Positions 1-12,566 of a stretch of DNA of 64,000 nucleotides are shown one piece after another. The notes below the pieces were generated by a model that was not told the origin of the DNA, did not search any database, and saw only the letters and a program-made list of their open reading frames with translations. The position numbers were made by a program, and so were the translations under genes. Each line of letters begins with the position of its first letter. Position 1 is the first letter of the stretch. The stretch is from an uncultured Lachnospiraceae bacterium. GTDB taxonomy: Bacteria; Bacillota; Clostridia; Lachnospirales; Lachnospiraceae. Location: assembly GCA_902762955.1 (NCBI GenBank), contig CACWQH010000006.1, positions 1 to 64,000 on the forward strand, given 5' to 3'.

Positions 1-3000
1 GGAAAAGAATATGAGCAAATCAGACTACTTCTTGATAAAATCAAAGCAATTGATAGTTTGCCGAGGTATATATGGCATAATTTACGTTTTCTCACTGAAA
101 GGTTGGATTCTTATCGTAATGAAACAATATCGGATTATATAATCCCGGATGAGATTGAATATATACAAGATAAATTTATTCCGGATGATGTTACAAATAG
201 GGTGTTATGTACAGGAAGCGGATATAGTGATGGAAAATTCAGAATATACAGATATTTCACTCAAAAATATGCTTATGATAGGAATATTACGGCTGCCGCT
301 GATTTTTTAAAGAATGAATATGGAACAGGCGGGCATAGTGGTCCCGGTTCAGATAATCTTGATGTAACTTATGACGCAAAGGGGATAGTTATTAGAAAGA
401 TTATTCTTAGTGATAATGATACCAGGGTTATAAAGTTAAATTGGAGTAATGTTGCAAGAATAATAAACAGAATAATAGAAAAAGGTTCCTTTTTCGATGA
501 AAAGGCGTTGGTAAAATATAATGATGTGTTAAATGAGTGGGAGGATTTTGAAGATAAGGCGAAAAAACCTATATCACAGGATGAAATCGACAGTATATTT
601 AGCAAGTATCCGGTTTTTGGAATAGAAAGCAGTAAAGAATTAGTTGAAATATTTAATAAAAATAAGGATAAATCTGACAAAGATTTGGCCTTATTTTTTT
701 CTGATTATTTAAATAGTAAGGATTCGGCACATATTTCAAGAAATACATATGATGGACTAATGATTAAGGCAACATATAAATATAATAGAAACTCAGATAA
801 TTCGGGTTTTGACGAAAAGTACGAAGGTATTGAAATTTCAAGAAATATGTTTAAGTTCGGTATGTATGGTGAAGCTGCAAGTATATCATATGAACCATAC
901 GAATTTTTTGAAATGGTTGCTTCTTTGATACGAAATAATCATTTTACGATTGAACCAACAGTAGATGATAATGTAAATGAGGATATTGTTGAAGATAATA
1001 TTGAAGAATCAAAAAATTATTTGGAAAATGATATATCAAAAAATGTTGTTCTAAAAAATTATAAGATTAAATCGGACGAGTTAACAAGTACGTTTTCTCC
1101 GAGAATAAGATTTAGAGATAATGTTAATGCGATTAAGCTTATAAATGAGCTTGAAGTTGAAAATAGACAACCGACAGAAGCCGAAAAAAACGTTTTAGCA
1201 AAATATGTAGGATGGGGCGGTTTATCTGATGCCTTTGATACAAGAAAAGATAATTGGCATAGTGAATATGTCGAACTACAGGAATTATTATCTGATTCGG
1301 AATATGCAGCTGCAAGAGAATCTACAATGACAGCATTTTATACTTCTCCTGTTGTTATAAATGCTATGTATAAAGCACTTTACAATATGGGATTTAATGA
1401 GGGGGATATACTTGAACCTGCATGTGGTATAGGCAATTTTATAGGTTCTGTGCCTGATAATATAAATGCCACGTTTACCGGAGTGGAGCTTGATGATATA
1501 TCCGGTAAAATTGCAAAGTATCTGTACCCGGAGTCTGATATATATGTCAAAGGCTTTGAAAAAACAGATTTGAAGAAGAAATATGATGTTGCAATAGGAA
1601 ATGTACCTTTTGGCAATTTTAAGATTTTTGACGCAAATCATCCTGATTGGAGTTTTTCTATTCATAATTATTTTTTTGCTAAAGCTCTTGAGAACGTTCA
1701 TGAGGGAGGATTATTAGCGTTTATTACCTCATCATACACTATGGATTCTGAAAATCCTGACTTTAGACAATATATATCTGAAAGGGCAGAGTTTCTTGGT
1801 GCAATAAGACTTCCAAATACTGCATTTAAAGGAAACGCCGGAACAGATGTTGTATCCGATATAGTTTTTCTTAAAAAAAGACCTGTACCAACAACAGAAT
1901 TAGATGAGGAATTTGTTTTTGCAGCAAAAACAGATAATTATGAATATGAATACAACATAAATCAATATTTTATAAATCATCCTGAAATGGTTTTGGGTGA
2001 TTATAAGGAAACAACGGGACAATATGGAAGACATATTCTTACTGTTGAGCCTAAAGAGGATATAAGTCTTGAAGAATGCCTTGATGAAGCCATTGTTAAT
2101 ATTAACGGGCAATTTGAAAAGAGTATTAATAAAATTGTTTCTGTTGAAGAAGATGTACTTGATGAAATACCTGCATCTCCGGATATTGATAATCTTACAT
2201 ATGGAATTATTGATGACGTGATTTATTATAGACAAGCAAACGTTATGAAACGTGTAACCGGCTTAAGTCAGGCAGATTATAACAGATTAAAAATGCTTGT
2301 TGAAATGCGGCAGATTCAAAAGAAACTTATTAATACTCAGTTACAATTACCAAATGATGAAATAGAAGCTGCGTTGGTTAAACTTCGTGGTGAACTAAAT
2401 AGTAAATATGATGTATTTGTAAAAAAGTATGGATATATAAATAGTAAAAAGAATCAAAGAATATTAGAGGCTGATGGTGGAAAATATTGCCTTTTTGCTA
2501 TTGAAAATCCGATAGGTGATAATAAGTATTCTAAAGCAGATATTTTCTTTCATAGAACTGTTCAGCCTATTTTGCCTGTAACAAGCTGCGATTCAATAGA
2601 AGACGCTTTAACGTTATCAAGGGCAGAAAAGGGATTTGTGGACATTAATTATATTTCGTCGCTCACGAATAAAGACAATGATTCAGTTATTAACGAGTTA
2701 ATAAATATGAATTTGATTTATAATGTCCCGAATACTGACGAATATCAGACAGCTGATGAGTATTTGTCCGGTAACATAAGAAAGAAACTTGATACTGCAA
2801 AAATAGCTTCAGAATCTGATACAAAGTATCAAAGAAATGTTGAAGCACTTGAAAAGGCTATGCCAGAACGTATTTTGGCTAAGGACATAAGTCTTCGATT
2901 GGGCTCCACATGGATTCCTCTTGAGTATTACCAGCAGTTTATGGAAGAAGTGTTTGAAACACCTAATTATTTTAAAGATTCCATTAAAATTACATATATA

Positions 3001-5949
3001 CCTTTTAATAATGAATATTACATATCTAACAAGAACATTTTTCACTCAACTTTGGTATCTTCAACATATGGAACTGACGATAAGAGTGCTTTTGAAATAC
3101 TTGAAGCTTCATTAAACTTGAAAGACGTTAAGGTGACAAAAATCATTGAAACACCGATAGGAACAGAAAAAAGAGTCACGGATAAAGAAAAAACGTTGCT
3201 TGCTCAAAGCAAACAGGAATCTTTAAAAAACAAGTTTGAGGAATGGATATGGTCGGATCCTCGAAGAGCTGCTGAATTGGAGGAACTTTATAACAATACA
3301 TTTAATACTGTAAGAAACAGGGAATATGATGGTAGTTTTTTGACGCTGCCTGGTTCTAATACGGATATAAAACTTAAAGACCATCAGTTAAATGCTGTTG
3401 CAAGGATTGTATTTGGTGGAAATACCTTGCTTGCTCATGTTGTTGGTGCAGGAAAAACTTTTGAAATGATTGCAGGTGCAATGGAAAGTAAAAGACTTGG
3501 ATTAAGTAATAAACCTATGTTTGTAGTCCCGAATCATTTAACATTACAATGGGCATCTGAATTTATGCGATTATATCCTACGGCAAAGATTCTTGTTGCA
3601 AATAAAACAGATTTTGAACCGGGAAACAGAAAAAAGTTTTGTTCAAGAATTGCAATGGGTAATTATGATGCTGTTATTATAGGACACTCACAATTTGAAA
3701 AAATACCATTATCATTTGAAAAACAGGAAGAATACATAAATCAAGAGATTGAAATGCTTGAGGAAGCGATTACAAATATAAATAATTCAAGGCGTTCTCG
3801 TTTTGCGAGTTTGGAAAAGGGACAGGAAATGTCTGTGAAAAAGCTTGAAAAGGCAAAGAAAACATTAAAGACACGGTTGGAAAAGCTTCAAAATGAGGTG
3901 AATAAAAAACAAGATAATGTTGTTTTCTTTGAGCAGCTTGGTGTTGATAGGTTATACGTTGATGAAGCTCATTACTATAAAAACTTATATACATATACAA
4001 AAATGACAAGAGTGGGTGGCATACAGACTACTAATGCTCAAAAAAGTTTTGATATGTATATGAAAACTAAATATATAAATGATATGACGGATGAAAAGGG
4101 AATTATATTTGCAACGGGTACACCTATATCAAACAGTATGGTTGAAATGTATACTTTACAAAGGTATTTAAGCCCGTCAATTCTTAAAGAACGTGGAATA
4201 GAAGATTTTGATTCCTGGGCAAGTACATTCGGTTCAACTGTTACATCTATGGAACTAAAACCAGAAGGTTCAGGATTCCAAACAAAAACAAGATTTGCAA
4301 AATTCTTCAATCTTCCTGAACTTATGACTTTATTTAAGGAATTTGCTGATGTTAAGACATCTGACATGCTTAATTTAGACGTACCGGAAGCAAACTATCA
4401 TAATGTTGAGATTGAAGCAAGTGAATTTCAAAAGACTTTGCTTGAGAAGCTATCAGAAAGAGCTGAAGCAATACGTGGAGGAAATGTTAATCCTAAAGAT
4501 GATAATATGTTAAAAATCACATCGGATGGTCGTAAACTTGCTCTGGATCAGAGGATAGTTAGCCCGACATTGCCTGATTATGATGATTCCAAAATAAACA
4601 CATTGGTTAAAAAAGCTATGAACATTTATAGAGATTACGATGAGGAAAAAGCTACACAGCTTATCTTTTCTGATATAAGTACTCCATCAGGAGATAATTC
4701 GAAAAATTATGATAAGGATGAATTTTCAAATGCATATTTGGATATTAAGAACAAATTAATACAAAATGGTGTCCCTGAGAGTGAAATAGCATTTATACAT
4801 GACGCAAATACAGAACTTAAGAAGTCTGAATTATTTGAAAAGGTAAATAAAGGAAGTGTAAGATTTCTTCTTGGTTCCACATCTAAACTTGGAGCTGGAA
4901 CTAACGTTCAAAATAGGCTTATAGCATTACATCATCTTGATGTACCGTGGAAACCGTCAGATATTGAGCAGCAAGAGGGAAGAATTATAAGACAAGGAAA
5001 TATGTTTGATAATGTGCATATTTACAGATATATAACAAAAGGAACGTTTGACGCATATTCATGGCAGATTATTGAAAATAAACAGAAATTCATTAGTCAG
5101 ATTATGACAAGTAAATCTCCGGTTCGTGTCGCAGATGATATAGACGAAACAGCTCTTTCTTATGCGGAAATAAAGGCTTTAGCTACAGGTAATCCGCATA
5201 TTAAGGAAAAAATGGAACTTGATATGGACATCGCTAAGCTTAAAATGCTACAGAGTAATTATCTCGAGAACATAAGAAACCTAAAAAATAAGATTGAACG
5301 TACCTTGCCGAAAGATATTGAATTAACTGAATGTAGACTTAAGTATCTTAAGTATGATTTGGAAATAGCTAACAAACAGAATATGGGTGAATTTTCCGGA
5401 TTATATATAGGTAAAAACGTATATATGGATTCAAAAGAAGCTGGAGAGAAGCTTCTTAAAGTTGTAAGAGAAAATAAAACACCAAATGTGGAATTTATGA
5501 TAGGTACTTACCGAGGCTTTGAACTATATATTAGTTATGAGCCTTTTTCTTTTGGCGTTAATGACTCTGATAAACTTCCTTATAAAGCTATATTAAAGGG
5601 AGCAACAAAACATTATGTTGAACTTGGAAGGTCTGAACTTGGAAATATTGTAAGACTTGATAATGAAATTAAGCGAATACAAGAAAAAGTAGATAACTGT
5701 GAACATCGATTAGCAGAATTGAAAAATGACCTTGAATTAGCAAAAATAGAAGTTGAAAAGCCTTTTTCAAAGGAACAAGAGTTAAATGATAAATTGACAA
5801 GGGCTAAGGAGCTTGAACATGAGCTTGGCTTGGATGAAGAGGTAAAAGAAAATGAGGTGGATGATGTTTATGAGGAGGATATTGAACAAAACGAAATACA
5901 ACATCAGGATGAAATTCGGAAAAATGAAAAAACGAGTGCAATATTATAA
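1..5949 (+). CDS. Giant mobile-element DNA methylase/helicase, 5' end cut by window
   Basis: The reading frame is open from base 1, so the gene begins left of the window; the TTG at 58 is only the first in-frame start codon here. At least 1,980 residues are visible. Counting from 58, an element-associated N-terminal region includes GGHSGPGSDN near residue 92. An N6-adenine methyltransferase-like core follows (EPACGIGNF near 452, motif IV variant GNVPFG near 514). A long SF2/SNF2-type helicase has Walker A GAGKT near 1130, DEAH in YVDEAHYYKN near 1300, motif III FATGTPISN and motif VI QQEGRIIRQG near 1640. The last ~260 residues look coiled-coil and acidic. Such methylase-helicase fusions are typical cargo of integrative conjugative elements and large plasmids, where they are thought to act on element DNA. 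The IV variant has V-P in place of P-P, so methylation activity is uncertain. Confidence 0.85.
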   Translation, partial: GKEYEQIRLLLDKIKAIDSLPRYIWHNLRFLTERLDSYRNETISDYIIPDEIEYIQDKFIPDDVTNRVLCTGSGYSDGKFRIYRYFTQKYAYDRNITAAADFLKNEYGTGGHSGPGSDNLDVTYDAKGIVIRKIILSDNDTRVIKLNWSNVARIINRIIEKGSFFDEKALVKYNDVLNEWEDFEDKAKKPISQDEIDSIFSKYPVFGIESSKELVEIFNKNKDKSDKDLALFFSDYLNSKDSAHISRNTYDGLMIKATYKYNRNSDNSGFDEKYEGIEISRNMFKFGMYGEAASISYEPYEFFEMVASLIRNNHFTIEPTVDDNVNEDIVEDNIEESKNYLENDISKNVVLKNYKIKSDELTSTFSPRIRFRDNVNAIKLINELEVENRQPTEAEKNVLAKYVGWGGLSDAFDTRKDNWHSEYVELQELLSDSEYAAARESTMTAFYTSPVVINAMYKALYNMGFNEGDILEPACGIGNFIGSVPDNINATFTGVELDDISGKIAKYLYPESDIYVKGFEKTDLKKKYDVAIGNVPFGNFKIFDANHPDWSFSIHNYFFAKALENVHEGGLLAFITSSYTMDSENPDFRQYISERAEFLGAIRLPNTAFKGNAGTDVVSDIVFLKKRPVPTTELDEEFVFAAKTDNYEYEYNINQYFINHPEMVLGDYKETTGQYGRHILTVEPKEDISLEECLDEAIVNINGQFEKSINKIVSVEEDVLDEIPASPDIDNLTYGIIDDVIYYRQANVMKRVTGLSQADYNRLKMLVEMRQIQKKLINTQLQLPNDEIEAALVKLRGELNSKYDVFVKKYGYINSKKNQRILEADGGKYCLFAIENPIGDNKYSKADIFFHRTVQPILPVTSCDSIEDALTLSRAEKGFVDINYISSLTNKDNDSVINELINMNLIYNVPNTDEYQTADEYLSGNIRKKLDTAKIASESDTKYQRNVEALEKAMPERILAKDISLRLGSTWIPLEYYQQFMEEVFETPNYFKDSIKITYIPFNNEYYISNKNIFHSTLVSSTYGTDDKSAFEILEASLNLKDVKVTKIIETPIGTEKRVTDKEKTLLAQSKQESLKNKFEEWIWSDPRRAAELEELYNNTFNTVRNREYDGSFLTLPGSNTDIKLKDHQLNAVARIVFGGNTLLAHVVGAGKTFEMIAGAMESKRLGLSNKPMFVVPNHLTLQWASEFMRLYPTAKILVANKTDFEPGNRKKFCSRIAMGNYDAVIIGHSQFEKIPLSFEKQEEYINQEIEMLEEAITNINNSRRSRFASLEKGQEMSVKKLEKAKKTLKTRLEKLQNEVNKKQDNVVFFEQLGVDRLYVDEAHYYKNLYTYTKMTRVGGIQTTNAQKSFDMYMKTKYINDMTDEKGIIFATGTPISNSMVEMYTLQRYLSPSILKERGIEDFDSWASTFGSTVTSMELKPEGSGFQTKTRFAKFFNLPELMTLFKEFADVKTSDMLNLDVPEANYHNVEIEASEFQKTLLEKLSERAEAIRGGNVNPKDDNMLKITSDGRKLALDQRIVSPTLPDYDDSKINTLVKKAMNIYRDYDEEKATQLIFSDISTPSGDNSKNYDKDEFSNAYLDIKNKLIQNGVPESEIAFIHDANTELKKSELFEKVNKGSVRFLLGSTSKLGAGTNVQNRLIALHHLDVPWKPSDIEQQEGRIIRQGNMFDNVHIYRYITKGTFDAYSWQIIENKQKFISQIMTSKSPVRVADDIDETALSYAEIKALATGNPHIKEKMELDMDIAKLKMLQSNYLENIRNLKNKIERTLPKDIELTECRLKYLKYDLEIANKQNMGEFSGLYIGKNVYMDSKEAGEKLLKVVRENKTPNVEFMIGTYRGFELYISYEPFSFGVNDSDKLPYKAILKGATKHYVELGRSELGNIVRLDNEIKRIQEKVDNCEHRLAELKNDLELAKIEVEKPFSKEQELNDKLTRAKELEHELGLDEEVKENEVDDVYEEDIEQNEIQHQDEIRKNEKTSAIL

Positions 5950-5991
5950 AAACAACTAAAGGTATCAATTTAAAACAAAATAAAAAAATAA

Positions 5992-6044
5992 AAAACGTTA
6001 TAGTGGTCTTGGAGTCCTATCCTCCTTAAGCACTATAACGTTTT
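5992..6044 (+). terminator. Long stem-loop after the helicase gene
   Basis: A perfect 14-bp inverted repeat (arms 5992-6005 and 6031-6044) encloses a 25-nt loop that can pair further (CTTGGAG with CTCCTTAAG, bulged). The right arm ends in TTTT but the T-run is short. It lies 40 bp after the stop codon, so a rho-independent terminator or 3' processing hairpin is likely. Confidence 0.55.
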
Positions 6045-6140
6045 CTGGTTTCAGTGAAATTATAAATTATAAGAAAAACATTGTCAATATCTAAGTAAGC
6101 ACAGTAAAGTTCAACTTTATAATATATTGGAGGGATTGCT

Positions 6141-8045
6141 ATGGATAATGAATTTATAAAAAATTTAAAAATTAAAATTGATGAGGATAGACTGGCAGCT
6201 CAGATAGAAAGTATATTTAATGGAAGTTTTGAAAGCAGAGATAATATCAAAATTTGCAATGAAACTCCGATAGAATTACAATCGATTGGTTGCGAAAAAT
6301 TACCTGTTTTTTACACAGTAAAACATTTTAATGATGCTATAAAATCCAAAGATAAACATTCTCATAAACACGGATTGGATATTTCTTTGATAAAAAAAAT
6401 ACCAACACTAATATATAATCCTGTTATGATTTTTGACTCTACTACTAAACAAGATAGTATCATAATCGTTACAGAAGAATTTGATAGCGATATGCTTCCT
6501 ATAGTTATTAGTCTTAAACCAAATGGAACAGCTGTTTATCAATTAAATGAGGTAGATTCGAATTTTTTGACAAGTATATACGGAAGAAATCATTTTATAA
6601 ACTTTGTTAATAACAGCTTAATTAATGATAGCTTATTATACATAAATAAAATAAAAAGCCAAGCATTATTGAATGGTCTTGGACTACAATCATCCGCAAG
6701 CATTCAACTGCCTGACTCTAATGGTATTATACATCCGAGTAGGAATATTGTCAATACGCAAAATATAGAGAAAATAAAAAAATTTAAAGAAAAAACAAAT
6801 AAGTGTTTTAATTTGATTAATGGCAAATATCCTAAAGATTTTGAGATTTTTGCAATGGATTTATGTCGTCAAATCGCTGATAATTATTTCCCGGGTGATG
6901 TAGAAATACTTAATGCCGCTGTTGTAGGAAGAAGAAGTAGAGGTTTTGAAAATAGATTTTCTGATATAGATGTAGCCTTAAGTTATAAGGGAACTACAAG
7001 TGAAGAAAAATTTGGTAATTATATATCTAAGCACAAAATAATACCATTTGGAATAAAGATGAATATTGTCCCTATAAGAGAGCAAAAACAAGGAATATTT
7101 GTTGATTATTTAAAAGAAACAGAAAAACAGCTACAGGAAGAGAGAACATCGATTTTTAAAGAAAAATACTGCATAGAGGACAAACCAAAGCTTTGTTTAA
7201 CAAATGAACCAATTTCATTTGAATTGTATAACATAATTGATAAGCTTAATAGAGGAGAATTCGTTGATATCAATGAAATAAAATCCACAAAAGAAATAAG
7301 GCTTGCAGAATCCTTTATTGATGATGGCTCACAAAGTATTGATAAGGAGGATAGAGTTGAATTTGACCTATCAATTGTTAATCAGCTTAACGATAAAATA
7401 AAATCTGTGACGATTGACAAACATGGTAAAGTGGGTTATAATGGCATTGTCGAAAAGGGCAATCGCCTTGATATTGTAATCGGTCTTCCGGGAGCGGGAA
7501 AATCTTCGGCAATTTCAAATATAATTTCATATAATTATAAGTCACGGATTATTGACTCTGATGAAGCTAAAAAAATGATTCCTGAATATAATGATGGATG
7601 GGGAGCTTCAATTGTTCATAGAGAGAGCCAAATAATTGAAAGATTTCAGTTTAATGAGGCTGTCGAAAAAGGTGAAAACATTGTCCTGTCAAAGGTCGGA
7701 AGTGATGCCTGTAAGCTTGAAAAGTATATTGATGACGCAAAAGCTAAAGGATATGTTGTTAATATTCACTATTTGGAATTAGACAGAAATAAGGCTATTG
7801 CAAGAGTATTAAACAGATTTATTTCAGAGGGTAGATATATAGCACTTGATGTGATTAATAAATATGATAATCCAGTAGATGGTTGTAAAATAGAAAAGAC
7901 ATATGAAACATTAAAAAATGATTCAAGAATAAATGAGTTTTCAAGGTGGAATAATGATGTTCCAAAAGGCGATAGTCCGAGACTTGTTGAAGGGAAGGGG
8001 GATAGTGTCTTTATAAAACATCATCTGGATAATAAAAAAATATAA
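6141..8045 (+). CDS. Polyvalent protein: MuF-C-like, nucleotidyltransferase-like and zeta-kinase-like domains
   Basis: A 634-residue protein with RBS GGAGGG 7 nt before ATG 6141. Residues ~45-200 resemble the phage MuF C-terminal (BECR-fold nuclease-like) domain seen in polyvalent proteins, with a conserved-looking IPTLIYNPVMIF stretch and SIYGRNHFINFV. Residues ~255-340 carry a nucleotidyltransferase signature, GRRSRGFENRFSDID, followed by a segment typical of element-borne NTase-like domains. Residues ~440-600 resemble zeta toxin kinases: Walker A GLPGAGKSS, then DSDEAKK and RVLNRF. Zeta kinases phosphorylate UDP-N-acetylglucosamine; no epsilon-type antitoxin is recognisable next to it. Its position between the methylase/helicase and the repeat protein suggests cargo injected or co-transferred during conjugation, which is inference. 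The MuF-C call is the least certain of the three. Confidence 0.7.
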   Translation: MDNEFIKNLKIKIDEDRLAAQIESIFNGSFESRDNIKICNETPIELQSIGCEKLPVFYTVKHFNDAIKSKDKHSHKHGLDISLIKKIPTLIYNPVMIFDSTTKQDSIIIVTEEFDSDMLPIVISLKPNGTAVYQLNEVDSNFLTSIYGRNHFINFVNNSLINDSLLYINKIKSQALLNGLGLQSSASIQLPDSNGIIHPSRNIVNTQNIEKIKKFKEKTNKCFNLINGKYPKDFEIFAMDLCRQIADNYFPGDVEILNAAVVGRRSRGFENRFSDIDVALSYKGTTSEEKFGNYISKHKIIPFGIKMNIVPIREQKQGIFVDYLKETEKQLQEERTSIFKEKYCIEDKPKLCLTNEPISFELYNIIDKLNRGEFVDINEIKSTKEIRLAESFIDDGSQSIDKEDRVEFDLSIVNQLNDKIKSVTIDKHGKVGYNGIVEKGNRLDIVIGLPGAGKSSAISNIISYNYKSRIIDSDEAKKMIPEYNDGWGASIVHRESQIIERFQFNEAVEKGENIVLSKVGSDACKLEKYIDDAKAKGYVVNIHYLELDRNKAIARVLNRFISEGRYIALDVINKYDNPVDGCKIEKTYETLKNDSRINEFSRWNNDVPKGDSPRLVEGKGDSVFIKHHLDNKKI

Positions 8046-8062
8046 ATAAGGAGGTTCTTGGT

Positions 8063-8662
8063 ATGGATATGTTAATGGAAAAATGGGATGTATATGATTC
8101 TGATAAAAAAGAAAGAGGGGAAATGATAGATAAGTATCTTGAATACAGAATACTTCATCATAGTGAATTTGATGGTCTTTCTATGGAAGATAAAATTAAA
8201 AAAGCATATAATGTGTTTAATATTATTGAGCATAATCTTATATATGAAAAACTTGATGATGAAGAAGATAAGAAAAGTATGAAGTTACAGGATAGGAATT
8301 GGAAAAACTATGATTATCAGATAGCTCTCACAGATGAAATGATGGTACGTGCTTTTGAATATGAAAAAGAACATCCGGAAGAATTTGATAATTTATCAGG
8401 AGAGGAACTGAATAGAAAGGAAGCTGAACTTTTTAACAGAATAAAAAAAGAATTAGTAGAAAGTGGCTTTGAGTATGAACATTTAGTTTCAGAAGGGAAA
8501 ATAGTACATGACGAATGGAACTATTTTGAAATGTTAATTAGAGAAGCTGAACCTGTTATGGAAGCAGAATATCAGTACGAAAAAGAACATCCTGAAGAGT
8601 TTGCTGGTTTGTCTGCAAAAGACAAATTAAATAAGATATCAGAAATCATTGATAAAATCTAA
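8063..8662 (+). CDS. Acidic repeat protein of unknown function
   Basis: A 199-residue, strongly acidic protein with no signal peptide or membrane segment. An AAGGAGG site lies 9 nt before ATG 8063, and the gene follows the polyvalent protein by 17 bp, so they are probably co-transcribed. Three copies of a helical repeat are visible at residues ~24-58, 96-130 and 167-199, about 72 residues apart. The core reads EYEKEHPEEFDNLSGEEL in copy 2, YEKEHPEEFAGLSAKDKL in copy 3 and YRILHHSEFDGLSMEDKI in copy 1. Nothing in it identifies a function. Possibilities are an antitoxin or immunity protein for the neighbour, an acidic DNA mimic, or an element structural protein. Confidence 0.7.
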   Translation: MDMLMEKWDVYDSDKKERGEMIDKYLEYRILHHSEFDGLSMEDKIKKAYNVFNIIEHNLIYEKLDDEEDKKSMKLQDRNWKNYDYQIALTDEMMVRAFEYEKEHPEEFDNLSGEELNRKEAELFNRIKKELVESGFEYEHLVSEGKIVHDEWNYFEMLIREAEPVMEAEYQYEKEHPEEFAGLSAKDKLNKISEIIDKI

Positions 8663-8723: not shown

Positions 8724-8780
8724 ATAAGAATATCCACTTTGACAATATTTGGGTTAAATGGAATAGGAGGATATAATACT

Positions 8781-9851
8781 ATGGGGAAAAAGTTTAAGCA
8801 TTTATCATTTGCAGATAGAGTAAAAATTGAAGTGTTGCTTAAAGAAGGAAAGCCTGTTAAATATATTGCTGATTATGTTGGTGTACACAGGTCAACAATA
8901 TATAGAGAAATAAAAAGAGGGGTTTTTGAAGCTTTAAATACTGATTTGACTACTGAAATGAGGTATAGTCCTGATATTGCAGACGAAAAATATCATTATA
9001 ATTTAGCAGCAAAGGGTCCGGAACTTAAAATTGGAAAGGACTTGAAGTATGCTAACTTTCTTGAAACTATGATTTTGGAAAATGATTATAGTCCTGAAGC
9101 AGTTTTGGGTTATATCATTGCAAATAATATGCAAAAAGAATTTACAGTTTCAATATGTAAAACAACTTTCTATAGCTATATTGAAAAAGGTCTTTTTCTC
9201 AATCTTACAAATAAGAATCTACCAGTTTTAGGAAAGAAAAAAAGGAAGTATAAAAAGGTAAGAAAAAATCAATCAAAAGCTGCGGCAGGTAGAAGCATTG
9301 AGAAACGTCCGGAACACATTAATGATAGAAAAGAGTTCGGGCATTGGGAAATGGATACAGTAATAGGTAAGAAAAGTTCAAAGAAAAGTCTTCTTGTTCT
9401 AACAGAAAGAAAAACAAGGGATGAATTAATATTCCTATTAAATAGACATACAGCTGCAGAGGTTGTTAGTAAAATTGATATTCTTGAAGAAAAATTAGGA
9501 GAGGACTTTTCTGAAATTTTCAAATCAATTACTGTTGATAATGGAACAGAGTTTTCTTATGCTGAAGAACTTGAAATGTCAAAAATACAGGAAGGAAATC
9601 GTACAGAACTTTACTATTGCCACCCTTATACAAGCTGCGAAAGAGGAACGAATGAAGTAACAAATAAAATGATACGTAGGAAAGTTCCTAAAGGAATTAG
9701 TTTTGATGATAAAACTGATGAGTATATTAAGGAAGTTCAAGAATGGATTAATTCTTATCCAAGACCATTACATAAATATCAAAATGCTGGAGAGGTCTTT
9801 AGAAAGGAATTAGCCGATATTGGATTTGAAAAGTATGCAGCTATATTTTAA
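8781..9851 (+). CDS. IS30-family transposase
   Basis: A 356-residue DDE transposase that catalyses cut-and-join of its own IS. The start is ATG 8781, because AGGAGG ends 10 nt upstream; an in-frame TTG at 8739 has no ribosome site. The N-terminus has an IS30-type helix-turn-helix (FADRVKIEVLLKEG, then HRSTIYREIKRG). The catalytic D-D-E residues lie in HWEMDTVIGKK, TVDNGTEFS and ERGTNEVTNKMIRRKVPKG, the last being the family signature. The protein appears complete and unmutated, so the element may be active. It sits exactly at the edge between mobile and chromosomal genes. Confidence 0.93.
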   Translation: MGKKFKHLSFADRVKIEVLLKEGKPVKYIADYVGVHRSTIYREIKRGVFEALNTDLTTEMRYSPDIADEKYHYNLAAKGPELKIGKDLKYANFLETMILENDYSPEAVLGYIIANNMQKEFTVSICKTTFYSYIEKGLFLNLTNKNLPVLGKKKRKYKKVRKNQSKAAAGRSIEKRPEHINDRKEFGHWEMDTVIGKKSSKKSLLVLTERKTRDELIFLLNRHTAAEVVSKIDILEEKLGEDFSEIFKSITVDNGTEFSYAEELEMSKIQEGNRTELYYCHPYTSCERGTNEVTNKMIRRKVPKGISFDDKTDEYIKEVQEWINSYPRPLHKYQNAGEVFRKELADIGFEKYAAIF

Positions 9852-10139: not shown

Positions 10140-10931
10140 ATGAAGAACTTTAAAAAGACTAAGTATTTATTGGTTGCAGCATGTATTATTTCAATGTTCT
10201 CGCTTGTAGCTTGTGGTTCAAAGAGAAAGAAGATTGAAACCATTGATGACCTTGAAGGAGCACGTATCGGTGTTCAGCTTGGAACAACAGGCGATATCTA
10301 TGCTTCAGACTATGAGGGTGATGAGAAAGGTACCGAGGTTATAAGATATAATGCCGGTGTTGATGCTGTTGAAGCTTTAAAGCAGGGTAAGATCGATGCT
10401 GTTATTATTGACGAGCAGCCTGCTAAGGTTTTTGTTGAGAAGAATTCTGATTTAAAGATTTTAAATGAGGAATTTACTGATGAAGATTATGCTGCAGTTA
10501 TAGCTAAGGATAACGAAGAGTTATTAAACGATGTAAATAAGGCTATTGAAGAATTAAAGGCAGATGGAACAATTCAAAAGCTTGAGGATACATATATCAA
10601 TAAGACGGATGATTTCCATTATACTCAGACAGTAACTGACGGAGAGAAGCTTGTTATGGCAACTAATGCTTATTTCCCACCTTATGAGTATTATGATGGT
10701 GGTACAATTATGGGATATGATGTTGAGCTTGGATATGCTATAGCAGATAAGCTTGGTATGGTTCTTGAGATTGAGGATATGGAGTTTGATGCTATTATCA
10801 ATGCTGTAAGTTCAGGTAAGGCTGATATCGGATTAGCAGGCTTTACAGTTACTGAGGAAAGATTAAAGAGTATCAATTTCTCAGATACTTATATTACTTC
10901 AAAACAGGTTATTATTGTATACGATAAGTAA
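10140..10931 (+). CDS. Amino-acid ABC transporter binding lipoprotein, circularly permuted
   Basis: A 263-residue lipoprotein of the family 3 amino-acid binding proteins. ATG 10140 is chosen because GGAGAG lies 9 nt upstream and it starts the signal peptide; the lipobox LVAC has Cys25. The order of segments is reversed relative to the family. The part usually C-terminal comes first (TIDDLEGARIGVQLGTTGD at ~34-52, then ALKQGKIDAVIIDEQPA). The part usually N-terminal comes last (LVMATNAYFPPYEYYDGG at ~170, TVTEERLKSINFSDTY, ending KQVIIVYDK). Ligand-contact motifs (NAYFPPYE, TEER) are kept, so it should fold and bind an amino acid. It is followed by its permease and ATPase. The substrate cannot be assigned. 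Confidence 0.9.
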   Translation: MKNFKKTKYLLVAACIISMFSLVACGSKRKKIETIDDLEGARIGVQLGTTGDIYASDYEGDEKGTEVIRYNAGVDAVEALKQGKIDAVIIDEQPAKVFVEKNSDLKILNEEFTDEDYAAVIAKDNEELLNDVNKAIEELKADGTIQKLEDTYINKTDDFHYTQTVTDGEKLVMATNAYFPPYEYYDGGTIMGYDVELGYAIADKLGMVLEIEDMEFDAIINAVSSGKADIGLAGFTVTEERLKSINFSDTYITSKQVIIVYDK

Positions 10932-10959: not shown

Positions 10960-10978
10960 TATGACGGGAGATAAGTTG

Positions 10979-11755
10979 ATGAAGCAGTTTACGGATAAAA
11001 CTAAAAAACATATCATATTAATGATTTTATTTGCTGTTTCTGCATTTTCACTGACAGGATGCAGTTTTAATGAATTTTCGGAAAAATTTAATGACAATTT
11101 TATAAAAGAGCAAAGATATCAATATATATTGGACGGATTAAAAAATACATTTATTATAACAATTCTTGCCGGACTTATAGGTATATTTTTAGGTTTTATC
11201 CTTGCTGTTATAAGAGTTACACACGATAAAAAAGGAAGCTTGAAAATCCTTGATTTGGTTGCAAAGCTTTATCTTACGGTTATAAGAGGAACCCCTGTTA
11301 TGGTTCAGCTTATTATAATCTATTATGTTATATTTGCATCCGTAAATATCAACAAGATTCTTGTAGCTGTAATTGCCTTTGGTCTTAACTCTGCAGCCTA
11401 TGTGGCGGAGATAATAAGATCGGGTATCATGTCGATAGATGTCGGACAGTTTGAAGCAGGGCACAGTCTTGGACTTAAGTATTCTACCGTTATGGTTAGT
11501 ATTATTTTGCCACAGGCTTTAAAAAATGTTTTACCTGCGCTTGCCAATGAGTTTATAACCTTACTTAAAGAAACTTCAATAAGCGGTTATATAGGCTTAA
11601 GTGACCTTACACGAGGCGGTATGATAATAAGAAGTATAACCTATGAGGCGATGTTCCCGCTTTTGTTGGTTGCATTTATCTATCTTGTGTTGGTAGTTGG
11701 CCTATCATCCTTGGTGTCAAAGCTTGAGAGGAGTCTTAAGAAAAATGAAAGATGA
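10979..11755 (+). CDS. Amino-acid ABC transporter permease (HisM/GlnP type) with lipobox-like N-terminus
   Basis: A 258-residue inner-membrane permease. ATG 10979 has GGGAG 9 nt upstream and is preferred over ATG 10961. The family core has several membrane helices and the EAA-type loop near [20 protein letters not shown], with [15 protein letters not shown] before it. Unusually, the first 28 residues look like a lipoprotein signal ([18 protein letters not shown]), with a lipobox Cys28, before the first permease helix. HisM-type permeases have their N-terminus outside, so a processed and lipidated start would be topologically consistent; this is inference. The gene overlaps the ATPase gene by 11 nt, indicating translational coupling. 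Confidence 0.9.
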
Positions 11756-12485
11756 TAATATTATTATACATACAGAACATCTTAATAAAACCTATGGTGA
11801 TGAGGTTGTACTTGAGGATATAAATATTGATATAAAAAAAGGCGAGGTTATAGCGGTTATAGGACCTTCAGGCTGTGGTAAAAGTACCTTTATCAGAACA
11901 CTTAATCTGCTTGAAAAGCCGACAAGCGGTGATATATATTTTGATGATATATGCATTACCGATAAAAAAACAGATGTTTATGAAGTGCTGCCCAAGATGG
12001 GTATGGTATTTCAGCAGTTTAATCTTTTCAATAATATGACTATTGAGAAGAATATAACCTTTGCACCTATCAAGCATAATCTTATGTCAGAGGAAGAAGC
12101 AAAGGAAAAGGCAAAGGAGCTATTGGAAAGAGTAGGTCTTTCGGATAAGGGTGATGCTTATCCATCCCAGCTTTCCGGTGGTCAAAAGCAGCGTGTGGCT
12201 ATCGCCAGGGCGCTTGCCATGAATCCTGATATTATTCTCTTTGATGAACCTACATCTGCACTTGATCCTGAGATGGTAAACGAGGTTCTTAATATCATGA
12301 AGGAACTGGCTAAAGGCGGTATGACCATGGTTATCGTAACACATGAGATGGGATTTGCAAGAGAGGTTGCAAGTCGTGTGCTCTTTATAGACGATAAGGG
12401 CATAAAGGAAGATGGAACACCTAAAGAGGTTTTGGATAATCCGAAGAGTGAAAGATTAAAAGGATTTCTTGAAAGTGTTCTTTAA
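11745..12485 (+). CDS. Amino-acid ABC transporter ATPase (GlnQ/HisP type)
   Basis: A 246-residue cytoplasmic ATPase that energises polar amino-acid uptake with the two preceding proteins. ATG 11745 is preferred to the in-frame start at 11697, because GAGGAG lies 11 nt upstream and residue 1 then aligns with the family. Visible motifs are Walker [11 protein letters not shown]-loop region MVFQQFNLF, signature LSGGQKQR, Walker [13 protein letters not shown] and the H-loop VTHEMGFA. Length is normal for the family. It is the last gene of the operon and is followed by a strong terminator. Confidence 0.96.
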
Positions 12486-12529: not shown

Positions 12530-12566
12530 AAAAACAGTCGTAATGCTTTGTGTTGCGGCTGTTTTT
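12530..12566 (+). terminator. Rho-independent terminator of the ABC operon
   Basis: A 14-bp stem (12530-12543 with 12553-12566) with two G-U pairs, a 9-nt loop and a terminal GTTTTT tract, 45 bp after the ATPase stop codon. Confidence 0.85.

Follow-up and report, generated by a model that had tools for sequence, protein, structure and literature searches.

Circular permutation of binding proteins has for the most part been the work of engineers, in the building of biosensors. In nature, TpMglB-2 is a permuted glucose-binding lipoprotein of type I with homologues in Gram-positive bacteria (PMC4990184), and the glycine-betaine binding proteins OpuAC and ProX are related by circular permutation in the CPSARST comparison (PMC2395249). 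Here we describe the product of an open reading frame (ORF) at 10140-10931, forward strand, in a 64,000-nucleotide stretch (the window) of contig CACWQH010000006.1 from an uncultured Lachnospiraceae bacterium. The protein of 263 amino acids starts at an ATG and has a lipobox, LVAC with Cys25, which we take to be one by the usual motif rule; our data support its being a family 3 solute-binding protein that has undergone circular permutation in nature.

Three segments suffice to describe the family: 1a, the first part of lobe 1; 2, which is lobe 2; and 1b, the end of lobe 1. With family 3 proteins such as AncQR (4zv1), Thermotoga maritima ArgBP and GlnH, the window protein shares the sequence family (PF00497), the residues at ligand positions, a predicted type II two-lobed fold and a place as a lipoprotein in an operon with a permease and an ATPase. 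Unlike the canonical members, which run 1a-2-1b, it runs 2-1b-1a, and its new ends lie in lobe 2. TpMglB-2 is likewise a naturally permuted, tethered binding protein of an ATP-binding cassette (ABC) importer, but differs in having the type I sugar fold, another cut site and a required fourth lobe crossing (PMC4990184). The OpuAC and ProX proteins compared in PMC2395249 are less than 24% identical, whereas identity between the window protein and proteins of the two other orders rises to 60-62% (at most 62% for canonical ones, over aligned segments), and family 3, unlike that pair, shows two orders within one genus. In the tandem SBD1-SBD2 of GlnPQ (6h30), the closing part of SBD1 and the opening part of SBD2, read across the domain junction, give the order of the window protein, but there two complete canonical domains stand in tandem, fused to the permease. 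A literature search, with most subscription journals outside its reach, turned up no report of a naturally permuted family 3 protein; events of this kind have precedents, and their occurrence here, giving two rotations within one family, appears not to have been described in the literature covered.

Segment order and predicted fold

The window protein belongs to SBP_bac_3 (PF00497), scoring 118.6 bits where 26.4 is the cut-off, and is matched as two stretches (features are collected in Table 1). Alignment to the chain of 4zv1 gave two blocks in reversed order: residues 171-260 correspond to chain positions 12-102 (domain E 1.1e-20) and residues 31-152 to chain positions 108-230 (domain E 1.4e-20). 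Since one block ends at chain position 102 and the other begins at 108, the cut falls inside the few residues between them, in the loop just past the first lobe-crossing strand. The same order was recovered by rotating the sequence against a profile of 221 positions built from 120 canonical-order proteins only. The best single match of the unrotated protein scored 137 bits and covered profile positions 1-92 of 221, whereas rotation by 132-144 residues gave 283 bits over positions 1-221; an unrotated canonical control, itself a member of the profile, scored 278 bits. The best of 20 shuffled controls reached 3.2 bits, which places the permutation signal far above chance.

A sequence-only reading of this DNA had proposed that the two lobes are joined in swapped order, and the reversed blocks and the rotation scan confirm it, the alignment after segment swapping being a match to the full profile. 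That reading also set the cut at the hinge strand; the cut is indeed near this strand, but in the loop after it and not inside it. Its view that the ligand motifs are kept agrees with the finding that D91, T236, R241 and GTTG 48-51 are invariant across 46 proteins of this order (“CP1”). AncQR carries the same letters at the positions aligned with D91, T236 and R241, residues which, with the GTTG motif, presumably contact the ligand.

Table 1. Binding-protein gene, its segments and the importer genes in the window.
Feature	Position	Strand	Evidence
Circularly permuted family 3 solute-binding lipoprotein (“CP1”, segments 2-1b-1a)	10140..10931	+	profile, structure-chain match, model, rotation scan
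Signal peptide and putative lipobox (LVAC, Cys25)	10140..10214	+	sequence
Segment 2 (lobe 2), residues 31-112; canonical place mid-protein	10230..10475	+	residues 28-114 match TmArgBP domain 2, 6gpm
Segment 1b, residues 113-158: second crossing strand plus the C-terminal helices of lobe 1; canonically C-terminal	10476..10613	+	
Linker, residues 159-168 on our segment borders, from old C-terminus to old N-terminus	10614..10643	+	
Segment 1a, residues 169-262: start of lobe 1 with the first crossing strand; canonically N-terminal	10644..10925	+	residues 166-257 match TmArgBP domain 1, 6gpc
ABC importer permease (likely start 10979), own lipobox FSLTGC ahead of membrane domain	10961..11755	+	
ABC importer ATPase	11745..12485	+	

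The AlphaFold2 model of the window protein shows a complete fold (pLDDT 89) with a continuous C-terminal strand at residues 245-261, and the chain is thus predicted to form an ordinary two-lobed trap. In a fold comparison covering the 1000 chains ranked highest by Foldseek, the GlnPQ tandem 6h30 was the top Foldseek match and OpuAC the top sequential structural match; none of the 50 fold matches listed has a title pointing to a type I sugar-binding protein, which excludes nothing. The chain now begins and ends in the loop that follows the first lobe-crossing strand, and a short linker bridges the old ends; the hinge is likely preserved because both crossing strands remain whole. The lipid anchor would then be attached to lobe 2 instead of lobe 1, as would the permease in fused relatives. 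Family, operon and conserved residues suggest that the protein likely captures an amino acid for the importer and hands it to the adjacent permease and ATPase. The sequence data establish the segment order, lipobox, operon and spread in related genomes, and very probably the gene encodes a naturally permuted family 3 lipoprotein of order 2-1b-1a, whose predicted two-lobed trap would feed an amino-acid importer.

Spread of the permuted forms and competing explanations

The order of the window protein recurs widely, and a survey of its spread, which the sequence-only reading had called for, shows it to be one of two different permutations within the same genus. The other, CP2, is the third rotation, 1b-1a-2, cut ahead of the second crossing strand. 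Among 37 genomes of the window's genus, 14 have CP1 (unfused in 8, joined to the permease in 6), another 14 have CP2, and none has both. With segment order verified for each hit, evenly drawn genomes yielded CP1 in 37 of 392 from the taxonomic order (E <= 1e-45; 39 hits, including one CP2, G154, and one canonical triple array, G381, whose unit junctions mimic the CP1 order) and in 23 of 391 from the class (E <= 1e-40; 32 hits, 9 of them CP2). The phylum sample gave hits in 3 of 398 genomes, all from the window's family.

Among 121 homologues (the query and the best 120 of 7996), 80 are CP1, 72 standing alone and 8 with a permease; the remaining 41 comprise 33 proteins of order 2-1b-1a-2-1b, 6 of order 1a-2-1b-1a and 2 that are partial or odd. 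We also collected 80 loci from named genome records, picked as best matches and hence not informative on frequency. Of these, 79 are CP1 (50 alone, 26 permease-fused and 3 in CP1-register arrays) and one is a canonical triple array. A permease domain is present at all 80, and an ATPase at 76 in the stretch examined. CP1 occurs in Roseburia hominis An869, Ruminococcus bromii YE282, Acetitomaculum ruminis DSM 5522 and Parasporobacterium paucivorans DSM 15970, and on the complete chromosome of Ruminococcus sp. FMBCY1 (L037).

These occurrences bear directly on a sequencing or assembly rearrangement within one gene, which the sequence-only reading had raised as grounds for rejecting the permutation. 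Nothing was found in its favor, the window coming from a draft genome of 81 contigs. It is ruled out for practical purposes by the recurrence of this order across many genomes, among them named isolates and one complete chromosome, with permease and ATPase genes adjacent as in the window. A protein of the OpuAC (glycine-betaine) type, native to such a topological order and not a permuted family 3 member at all, is a reading we consider very improbable: identity to OpuAC is 15%, set against the PF00497 score and the identity to canonical family 3 proteins given above. The OpuAC family PF04069 is absent from the matches of the window protein (P0001) at E <= 0.001, but a few relatives bear that label.

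The explanation with somewhat more to recommend it, though still an unlikely one, is that the gene is what remains of a tandem array, with the back half of one domain running into the front half of the next; its product would work only by pairing with halves of another copy, as a swapped dimer, or would not work. Permease-fused tandem arrays of such domains do exist, and GlnPQ SBD1-SBD2 is the top Foldseek match, its best sequence stretch crossing the domain junction. Yet neither the operon nor the PF00497 matches of this 89%-complete genome include a stray half elsewhere; one chain is predicted with high confidence to form the entire fold; the ligand-position residues are conserved; and the boundaries are regular in 146 different stand-alone sequences, with a median linker of 19 residues and a median tail of 3.

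Arrays and the history of order changes

Permease-fused tandem arrays, with two or three binding domains, are found in the canonical register (L088, L125/L189) as well as in the permuted one (L077, L095, L100). Their occurrence in both registers suggests a simple route to rotation, in which tandem duplication of the gene would be followed by trimming in another register. In L077, one junction looks canonical, such that its 1a segment could pair with either neighbor.

The five-segment proteins (2-1b-1a-2-1b) come from metagenome contigs (P0006-P0013, P0015-P0031 and others); our first impression of these and the 1a-2-1b-1a proteins as duplication intermediates was dropped as evidence. A search of 295 genomes with P0006 returned no full-length match, only separate CP1 or canonical pieces, and its start, judged by eye, is close to that of the CP1 protein P0102 before diverging inside segment 1a. 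The five-segment proteins may therefore be assembly chimeras, or alternatively rare intermediates.

Phylogenetic trees were built on segments rearranged into one common order. The order labels need 6 changes on a quick tree of 119 rows and 5 on a careful tree of 74 rows, chosen from the 119 after the quick tree had been seen by thinning rows and dropping three long canonical ones; these counts carry no direction, and the canonical proteins are thinly represented, with 13 rows. A supported branch (98/98) splits CP2 into two groups, and the Anaerotignum-type canonical proteins cluster with one CP2 set (98/90), amid CP1 rows. A single origin for each order was tried with approximately unbiased (AU) tests: one clade was rejected for all canonical proteins (p 0.0006), and the rejection was weak for CP1 (p 0.032) and absent for all CP2 (p 0.28) and for CP2b (p 0.29). 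Repeated order change is thus favored, two origins of CP2 are not established, and the number of changes is partly resolved. We put forward only tentatively, as somewhat less than an even prospect, a wider scenario in which family 3 proteins of this bacterial class have rotated repeatedly, using all three lobe-boundary rotations with at least five changes on the best tree, the Anaerotignum-type canonical branch inside the permuted ones being perhaps a return, and the two permuted forms being interchangeable in one type of importer. Replacement at the same locus was considered and set aside: 17 CP2 and fused-CP1 loci, with flanks of up to ~5 kb, had no hits to the miaB and mutS of the window, whereas the window's neighbors were matched in the unfused CP1 loci checked (three: L199, miaB only, L217 and L218).

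Operon context and significance

The permease scores above the cut-off of TIGR01726 (HEQRo_perm_3TM), of an amino-acid type importer, and downstream of the ATPase the ORFs at 12550 and 14068 were identified as miaB and mutS by visual inspection. The permease, at 10979-11755 in the window, has its own signal peptide and a lipobox (LTGC or LTAC) just ahead of the membrane domain, a feature conserved in 8 of 8 genomes of the clade (L005-L012); L025, a ninth locus, seems to come from the genome that holds L010. Given the fused forms elsewhere in the genus, this lipobox may have been left behind when a fused gene for binding protein and permease split in two. Permeases adjoining permuted binding proteins at two other loci (L026, 5029-6012; L027, 5442-6596) begin like a signal peptide and carry a long Ser/Glu-rich extension ahead of the membrane domain.

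Just 5' of the importer operon lies a transposase-like ORF (8739-9851) with HTH_38 and a weak match to an integrase core, which we take to be of the IS30 type; it has zero hits in the flanks of 20 related loci. The region 1-8662, with an ORF of at least 1982 residues entering from the window edge and then a protein with MuF_C and Zeta_toxin domains, is likely mobile-element cargo. Comparison of the whole 64-kb window with Rfam gave zero matches and no riboswitch, and a promoter scan found 20 sites against 15.4 expected (sd 3.8), which is uninformative.

Profile-based annotation masks the permutation, because both halves still match the family. In nature, one family has its original order and two permutations, with the window protein up to ~60% identical to members of each, and these natural rotations make it testable how chain order and the place of the membrane anchor affect folding, closure and docking to the permease.
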